NCBI GenBank assembly: GCA_944320685.1
Contig: CALUIK010000002.1
Coordinates: 248,001-312,000, forward strand
DNA length: 64,000 nucleotides
Direction of reading: 5' to 3'
Source of the DNA: an uncultured Alistipes sp.
GTDB lineage: Bacteria; Bacteroidota; Bacteroidia; Bacteroidales; Rikenellaceae
Positions 30,542 to 32,068 of this stretch are shown here, piece after piece. How positions within the stretch are numbered: position 1 is the stretch's first letter; each line of letters starts with the position of its first letter. Below the pieces are notes generated by a model. That model searched no databases. It had not been told where the DNA came from and saw only the letters and a list, made by a program, of their open reading frames with translations. The translations under genes were made by a program, and so were the position numbers.

Positions 30542-30572
30542 CAAATATATTTAAATTAATAATATTTTCCAA
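30542..30572 (-). promoter_or_regulatory. promoter of dedA-aroE
   Basis: On the minus strand TTG (30570-30572), 20-bp spacer, TATATTTG (30542-30549), 37 bp before the dedA ATG. The -33 box overlaps the last codons of mnmA. Confidence 0.65.
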
Positions 30573-31557
30573 CTATGCCGCCGCCTATTACCCTGCCGTC
30601 ACGGTAAAATACCGCAGGCTGCCCGACTGCGGGGGCCCATGCCGGCGAACCGAGCACAATACGTATCCGCTCCATTACGGGCACGGCCCGGAGCATGTAC
30701 CCCTGAGGGTTGCGGCCGATGCCGCGGATCACGACTTCGATGTCATTTGCGGATAGGAATTCGTCCATATCCACTATGTTGTACGATTCTATCTCAAGCG
30801 TCGTGTAATATAGTTGCGACTCCTTGCCTACGACGATGCGGTTATTTGCGGCGTCGATATCTATTATGCACATGCCCGTTTCGGATATATGCAGGCCGCG
30901 TTTCTGTCCTATGGTATAGAATGCCGTGCCGTCATGGCGTCCTACGATACGGCCTCCGGCGTCGACGACGTCACCCGGCTGCGCGGTTGCGGGGCATCTG
31001 TCCGCAATATACCGTGCATATGGCATGCCGCCCAGAAAACATACCCCCATGCTTTCGCGGCGCGAGGGCGTCCCGTGCATCAGATCCGACTTGTAGGTAT
31101 GCGCCATCGGGGTGATTATACGTTCGAGGGTTGATTGCGGCAACCCCCATAGGTAATAGGATTGATCTTTGGTGCGGTCGTCGGCACGGCTGACATATAT
31201 GTGCCCGTTGTAGCGTACGGTATTGAAATAATGTCCTGTGGCAATTGCCCGTATTCCGAGGCGGTCGGCTTCGGCAACGAGCGACGGCCATTTTATGGCA
31301 GTATTGCACAACGTACACGGCGCGGGTGTGCGTCCGGTGGCATAACTGCCGACAAAATAATCCGTTATTGACGAGAAGGCGGTTCTTACATCTTTTATGA
31401 CCAGCGGTATGCCTATCTCGGAGGCGCGTTTGCGCGCCTGTGACAAGAGGCGGCTGTCCCCCGTCATGTCGAGTGTAAGTGCCGTAACCGCCCAGCCGTC
31501 CGCCATAAGGCGTGCGGCCGCCGCACAGCTGTCTATGCCTCCGCTGAATCCGAGAAT
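30556..31557 (-). CDS. mnmA: tRNA-specific 2-thiouridylase MnmA, start codon non-standard
   Basis: The frame encodes a tRNA thiolase that makes s2U34 with ATP and persulfide sulfur. The PP-loop GFSGGIDS, catalytic Cys in APCTLCNTAIKW, persulfide Cys in SMGVCFLGG, IATGHYF, and IGQKRGLHI are visible. The first ATG in frame (31506) lies after the PP-loop, so translation must begin upstream. From the in-frame TAA at 31678-31680 down to 31507 there is no ATG, GTG, TTG or CTG codon. I place the start provisionally at ATT 31557, preceded at 4 bp by AGGAG on the minus strand; this gives 333 residues and the normal distance to the PP-loop. A frameshift or assembly error is the alternative. Confidence 0.75.
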   Translation of the reverse strand: MLGFSGGIDSCAAAARLMADGWAVTALTLDMTGDSRLLSQARKRASEIGIPLVIKDVRTAFSSITDYFVGSYATGRTPAPCTLCNTAIKWPSLVAEADRLGIRAIATGHYFNTVRYNGHIYVSRADDRTKDQSYYLWGLPQSTLERIITPMAHTYKSDLMHGTPSRRESMGVCFLGGMPYARYIADRCPATAQPGDVVDAGGRIVGRHDGTAFYTIGQKRGLHISETGMCIIDIDAANNRIVVGKESQLYYTTLEIESYNIVDMDEFLSANDIEVVIRGIGRNPQGYMLRAVPVMERIRIVLGSPAWAPAVGQPAVFYRDGRVIGGGIVGKYY

Positions 31558-31595
31558 AACACTCCTGCCGTCGCGGTTTGCGGCGTAACGGCAAC

Positions 31596-31624
31596 CGTTT
31601 CCGATAGCTGCGGTATCGGAAACG
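31596..31624 (-). other. perfect hairpin just upstream of mnmA
   Basis: An 11-bp perfect stem (31596-31606 with 31614-31624) with a 7-nt loop lies 38 bp before the proposed mnmA start and is within the open frame upstream. It lacks a T run on either strand, so it is not an ordinary terminator. It could control translation or mRNA processing in the PUR-mnmA transcript. Confidence 0.5.
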
Positions 31625-31699
31625 TGTGATGGCGTGCGTGAATTGCTGTGCTCGATGGGTGAGGGGTTGTTTGTCGGTTATTGTTTTTCGGGGCTCGTG

Positions 31700-31999
31700 C
31701 TAACGCTTTTTGGCCTCCTGCGACATGCTGCGCTTGACGAACTCCATGGCGTCGCTGAAACCTTGGGCGAATTTTTCGAAATCCTCTTGATACAGGAAAA
31801 CCTTGTTGCGTTCGTTTTCGGCGCCGTTGCCGGTTGTCTTCTTGCGCAATTCGGTTATCGTCATGAAATAGTCCCTGTTGCGGGTGGCTTTCACGTCGAG
31901 GAAATAGGTCCGGTGGCCTGCTCTGATCATCTTCGAGAAGATGGATTCTCCGAAGCCGTCGGACGTGTGTTGCGGGCAGGATGCAGATTCTGTAACCAT
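31700..31999 (-). CDS. PUR family nucleic-acid-binding protein (DUF3276)
   Basis: A 99-residue protein of the Bacteroidota/spirochaete PUR family (DUF3276). The strand pattern RTYFLDVKATRNRDYFMTITELRKK then NKVFLYQEDFEKFAQGFSDAMEFVK is the PUR repeat, a fold that in Borrelia and in eukaryotic Pur-alpha binds single-stranded or G-rich nucleic acid. One repeat is present, so a dimer is expected. The longer ATG at 32065 would place the promoter inside the gene; the ATG at 31999 is used. The role in gut Bacteroidota is unknown. Confidence 0.82.
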   Translation of the reverse strand: MVTESASCPQHTSDGFGESIFSKMIRAGHRTYFLDVKATRNRDYFMTITELRKKTTGNGAENERNKVFLYQEDFEKFAQGFSDAMEFVKRSMSQEAKKR

Positions 32000-32025
32000 G
32001 ATGAAATATAGGTTATTCCGTGAGC

Positions 32026-32057
32026 CAAATTTATATAATTTTTTCCCTATTGGCAAA
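32026..32057 (-). promoter_or_regulatory. promoter of the PUR protein gene
   Basis: On the minus strand TTTG (32054-32057), 20-bp spacer, TAAATTTG (32026-32033): full match, 26 bp before the ATG. Confidence 0.78.
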
Positions 32058-32068
32058 TTATACACGGA

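Follow-up and report, generated by a model that had tools for sequence, protein, structure and literature searches.

The question raised by this locus is how a gene can be translated when no conventional start codon stands ahead of its active-site loop. The window (the whole stretch of DNA analysed, 64,000 nucleotides from an uncultured Alistipes sp.) carries on its minus strand an mnmA frame which is open from 31677 to 30556 (373 codons), is bounded upstream by an in-frame TAA at 31680-31678, and encodes its PP-loop, GFSGGIDS, at 31551-31528. No ATG, GTG, TTG or CTG was found in frame between this TAA and the PP-loop, bearing out what a first-pass annotation of the window had reported, and the earliest in-frame NTG is the ATG at 31506, past the loop. 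The only AT-beginning near-start codons in frame before the PP-loop are ATC at 31656-31654, ATC at 31605-31603 and ATT at 31557-31555 (codons -35, -18 and -2 respectively, numbered relative to the loop). That annotation had correctly placed this ATT at 31557, an AGGAG at 31566-31562 and a GTG in another frame at 31562. The absence of an NTG is not in itself improbable, because about half (51%) of composition-matched shuffled leaders also lack one in frame; what is unusual here is a start-less gene under purifying selection, rather than the bare absence of an NTG.

A divergent second copy of MnmA

The source genome (G000; 2.49 Mb in 14 contigs, 97.5% complete) has other Alistipes MAGs (Rikenellaceae) as its nearest relatives. 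The focal protein matched the NCBIfam MnmA model NF001138 with an E value of 9e-75 and 251.7 bits, below the equivalog cut-off of 284 bits, and TIGR00420 with 202.7 bits, again below the equivalog cut-off (237 bits); Pfam PF03054, PF20259 and PF20258 were all above cut-off, with PF03054 (the HUP ATPase domain) at E 1.4e-35. The SGGxDS form of the PP-loop that marks the MnmA family is present and is invariant in a 66-sequence alignment. Both catalytic-cysteine motifs were also found, as PCTLCNTAIKW (C-x-x-C-N, CN..IK) and GVCFLG (GVCF, G.CF), and the catalytic cysteines C104 and C193 are invariant (alignment A2). The nearest solved structures are those of MnmA (9hln, 2hma and 2der), and an AlphaFold2 model of the focal protein had a pLDDT of 93.6. 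Together the NCBIfam, Pfam and AlphaFold2 results define a conserved body running from the PP-loop to the stop codon (31551-30556, minus strand).

A canonical mnmA with an ATG start lies elsewhere in the same genome (G000:C1:267803 onwards) and passes the cut-off with 422 bits against 284. Because this canonical gene is also present, the focal gene, hereafter mnmA2, is a divergent second copy; on its scores below the cut-offs it is classed as an MnmA-like paralogue and no certified equivalog. The PCxxCNxxIKW motif is common to the relatives of this second-copy MnmA.

The NTG start codon is missing in two sister species

The closest relative of mnmA2 is found in another Alistipes MAG (G202; locus L056, which is the same as L033), with 95% amino-acid identity in the product, and in L056 too no NTG was found before the PP-loop. 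Of the 92 homologues compared, an ATG precedes the loop in 84 and only a GTG or TTG in 6, and 2 (the focal gene and L056) have no NTG there at all; in each of the other 90 an NTG stands at least 5 codons before the PP-loop. In the tree the focal gene and L056 are sisters (support 100/99), with L058 (ATG at -14) and L057 (GTG at -10) next to them, and a leader of this kind was found only in G000 and G202 among 180 genomes of the genus. By inspection of the alignment, independent losses of an ATG are conceivable only at codons -5 (AGG in the focal gene, AAG in L056) and -28 (ACG and AAG), and a single shared loss of the start would be simpler than an independent loss in each lineage.

The 15 codons beginning with the PP-loop differ between the two species by 5 synonymous and no amino-acid changes; the loop is therefore itself translated and under selection, and the ATG at 31506 is excluded as the functional start.

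Which codon starts translation

A start-context model was built from 87 shared ATG starts, and these showed no Shine-Dalgarno sequence and a strong enrichment of A at -11 to -15. Starts in Bacteroidota have been described as A-rich and Shine-Dalgarno-free, with mRNAs that generally lack this element (PMC6847099, PMC3155529). The conserved in-frame candidates in the mnmA2 leader are ATC at codon -35, ATT at -2, AGG/AAG at -5, ACG/AAG at -28 and GTT/GTC at -3. The ATC at codon -35 is identical in the focal gene and L056, and its context scored 3.0 and 4.0 respectively (the median for true starts being 2.9 and the 95th percentile of the null 0.95), which places it in the top 0.9% of random sites in the focal genome and the top 0.3% for L056. 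It lies within an A/C-rich leader block of 40 nt (31684-31645, minus strand) that is identical in the sister species bar one 1-base gap, and it is in the sole 40-nt window with at most 1 difference, the other in-frame sites having 4-12, although low divergence is also seen in 13-24% of 40-nt upstream windows of other genes. As the non-start codons -38 to -41, which share the same A-run, score as high as the ATC, the context supports a start near codon -35 and is no proof of the ATC itself. The best-supported start is most likely the ATC at 31656-31654, and we infer the choice of this particular codon from its identity in both species, its context and its low divergence.

Between codons -34 and -1 the differences between the species fall on the three codon positions as 7, 9 and 7 (dN 0.25, dS 0.29), an unbiased pattern which speaks against the ATC in that it fits an untranslated leader, but which a disordered tail would produce equally well. 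In the AlphaFold2 model strand beta-1 is formed by codons -4 to 0 and the residues before codon -7 are disordered, so that a freely evolving N-terminal tail should be tolerable. The codon-position test was considered as a means of locating the start and set aside, being uninformative upstream of codon -3, where a disordered tail would be free to change.

Alistipes infC genes, identified by a family search, start at ATC, ATT or ATA. In L217, L218, L219 and L232 no NTG precedes the conserved N-terminal region of infC, and in L220 there is none before the ATA, and because infC thus has no N-terminal NTG candidate in five genomes, this lineage does make use of AUH starts. In other Alistipes infC genes a TTG is found two codons before the ATT, ATC or ATA.

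Our tentative explanation, to which we give somewhat less than an even chance, is that mnmA2 encodes a functional, divergent second MnmA, that its ATG, GTG or TTG start was lost in the common ancestor of the sister species, and that a non-NTG codon has taken over initiation. The ribosome would most probably begin at the AUC at 31656-31654, guided by the A/C-rich, unstructured leader as the Bacteroidota substitute for a Shine-Dalgarno sequence. With this start, some 35 disordered residues would precede strand beta-1, a kind of tail that was seen in no other homologue compared. Expression of MnmA2 would be expected to be low and, by analogy with infC, sensitive to IF3.

The first-pass annotation had instead pointed to the ATT at 31557-31555, two codons before the PP-loop and 4 bp after an AGGAG. 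This ATT is a possible start but a weaker one than the ATC at 31656, and we consider a start at AUU unlikely. It is identical in both species, AGGAG (focal) or AAGGA (L056) stands 4 nt before it, and infC in the genus makes use of AUU; however, its context is average (-0.3 in the focal gene and 1.0 in L056), a start there would, according to the model, cut strand beta-1 from 5 residues to 3 through the loss of Ser -4 and Val -3, and in no homologue does the start stand fewer than 5 codons from the loop. The AGGAG was rejected as Shine-Dalgarno evidence for the ATT, as AGG AGT encodes an Arg-Ser pair which recurs in several relatives whose starts lie farther upstream, and Shine-Dalgarno sequences are generally absent from the mRNAs of Bacteroidota (PMC6847099, PMC3155529).

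Slightly less probable, in our judgement, is a start at one of the other non-NTG codons near the fold, either AGG/AAG at codon -5 or GUU/GUC at codon -3, the latter by way of the overlapping out-of-frame GTG (ATG in L056) at 31562-31560, in the style of AUGUG/GUGUG or of the GUC of sigR. Codon -5 is preceded by A at -11 to -13 in both species, but both AGG and AAG initiate very poorly and their context score here is average. The overlapping GTG/ATG, at -11 nt, is the sole NTG that both leaders retain, whichever frame is read, and there are proven precedents both for a GUC start, in Streptomyces sigR (PMC5472188), and for double initiation at overlapping NTGUG in E. coli (PMC9841429). The overlap is, however, a trivial result of the conserved xGT/GAT-GTx codons (Val), and the sequences are GUGUU and AUGUC rather than NUGUG.

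Decay, read-through and assembly error

It is very improbable that mnmA2 is decaying or unexpressed, its start having been lost because the canonical mnmA is present; decay was one of the options named in the first-pass annotation. In favour of it are the canonical copy itself, which passes the equivalog cut-off, and the patchy occurrence of the second MnmA, found in about half of the genomes of the genus. The body of mnmA2, however, shows a dN of 0.026, a dS of 0.196 and thus a dN/dS of 0.13 since the two species split, a usual value between these two genomes, where omega has a median of 0.086 and a 90th percentile of 0.178; no stop codons were found in the body, against 4.3 expected under neutrality (P(0) = 0.014), and the PP-loop and catalytic motifs are intact in both species. 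We have therefore rejected decay. On this substitution pattern mnmA2 is clearly being kept functional by selection in both species without an NTG start, and the purifying selection on its body, along with the lack of an NTG in the sister species, supports the other option offered by that annotation, of a non-NTG start.

How rare such frames are was judged from a genome-wide control, in which the window and a further 800 kb of G000 (864 kb in total) were compared with 770 kb of G202 for conserved frames beginning before any NTG in both species, overlaps with other frames being removed by inspection. In the 175 coding ortholog pairs sampled, a frame without an in-frame start was found for prfB and mnmA2 alone, and prfB was confirmed by its family and by a CTTTGAC site with an upstream ATG. 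In this prfB (L174 12550-12620, at about 372.6 kb of C1 in G000) the CTTTGAC is preceded by GGGGAGGTG, an internal Shine-Dalgarno-like element in a lineage without Shine-Dalgarno starts. The programmed +1 frameshift of prfB is like mnmA2 in having a frame without a start of its own, but it draws on an upstream ATG in another frame and on CTTTGAC, and nothing similar is kept in the mnmA2 leader; no upstream start of the prfB kind with a conserved shift site was found in it, the only NTG kept being the GTG/ATG at 31562, from which the focal reading stops after 9 codons.

Directly upstream of mnmA2, on the same strand, is a DUF3276 gene (31700-32065; Pfam PF11680), whose stop codon is 148 nt from the PP-loop in the focal genome and which precedes mnmA in the same order in L056, L057 and L058. 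Read-through or frameshifting from this or another upstream frame, in the style of prfB, seems a shade more improbable even than decay. In L056, L057 and L058, DUF3276 and mnmA share one frame, with a linker of 48-51 codons that is open back to the DUF3276 stop, and prfB shows that a frame lacking a start of its own can work in this genome. In the focal genome, however, a shift of one base puts mnmA2 out of phase with DUF3276, and a further TAA stands in its frame. The stop codons are not the same (TAG, TAA, TGA and TAA), the leader shows neither conservation as protein nor any slippery or CTTTGA-like site, and by composition 33-57% of shuffled leaders would be open, so a DUF3276-MnmA read-through fusion was rejected.

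All the genomes compared, including these two, are MAGs, but least probable of all is that a normal start is masked by faulty assembly or by an indel peculiar to one strain. An indel was among the options of the first-pass annotation, which proposed aligning relatives as a check. Two independent assemblies from different species are both NTG-less and show no gap between codons -35 and -1 when aligned, and the single 1-base gap between them lies upstream of codon -35 and restores no start.

Likeness to known systems

To our knowledge, few bacterial genes (infC and sigR) have been proven to start at a non-NTG codon. Like these, mnmA2 has no NTG before the fold, here in more than one species, and has stayed under purifying selection after the start was lost, and it most likely joins this small group, so far as comparison of sequences can place it there. 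It resembles infC (encoding IF3; AUU, AUC or AUA start) in being a working, conserved gene whose sole plausible start is non-NTG, but the product of infC is a fidelity factor which senses such starts and autoregulates, whereas MnmA is a tRNA-thiolation enzyme. We know of no reason for MnmA to be wired to IF3. That a conserved non-NTG start, AUC or another, may tie the level of MnmA2 to IF3 activity, giving an infC-like switch outside the translation factors, is accordingly a doubtful idea, if a conceivable one.

Streptomyces sigR, with its GUC start (PMC5472188), is a likeness of another sort, being a gene other than infC with a non-NTG start that was missed by annotation, and its translation is kept low. 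It differs in that the GUC was proven by N-terminal sequencing and mutagenesis, in a high-GC Actinomycete and with a strong ribosome-binding site (PMC5472188), whereas the AUC of mnmA2 is a predicted start with no functional Shine-Dalgarno sequence. With the tRNA 2-thiouridine synthase MnmA/TrmU, mnmA2 shares the fold, the PP-loop and the two catalytic-cysteine motifs, but it scores below the NF001138 and TIGR00420 cut-offs, falls in a divergent branch of second copies from Bacteroidales and is missing its start codon.

A comparative case of this kind in the Bacteroidota, which lack Shine-Dalgarno sequences, would mean that the identity of a start codon can be lost while the gene survives. A rare start such as ATC would be missed by gene-finding programs. 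These would probably take the ATG at 31506, past the PP-loop, as the first codon, and the annotated enzyme would then look dead. Comparison of two species, as carried out here, can serve as a general screen for hidden starts.

Minor observations on the leader and the second MnmA

The focal leader contains a perfect 11-bp hairpin (31624-31596, minus strand), CGTTTCCGATA-ccgcagc-TATCGGAAACG, with a z of -4.1 and no T-run. It was considered as a conserved regulator and rejected, as it is broken in L056; if translation starts at the ATC at codon -35, the hairpin would fall within the coding region, a point against that start. In L043/L072 (Alistipes RGIG9154) the second-copy mnmA has an internal TGA, which may mark a genuine pseudogene or a fault in the assembly. 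Bacteroidales second copies of MnmA carry a third conserved cysteine, having C-x-x-C-N (PCTLCN) where the canonical copy of this genome has D-x-x-C-N (PDVLCN).
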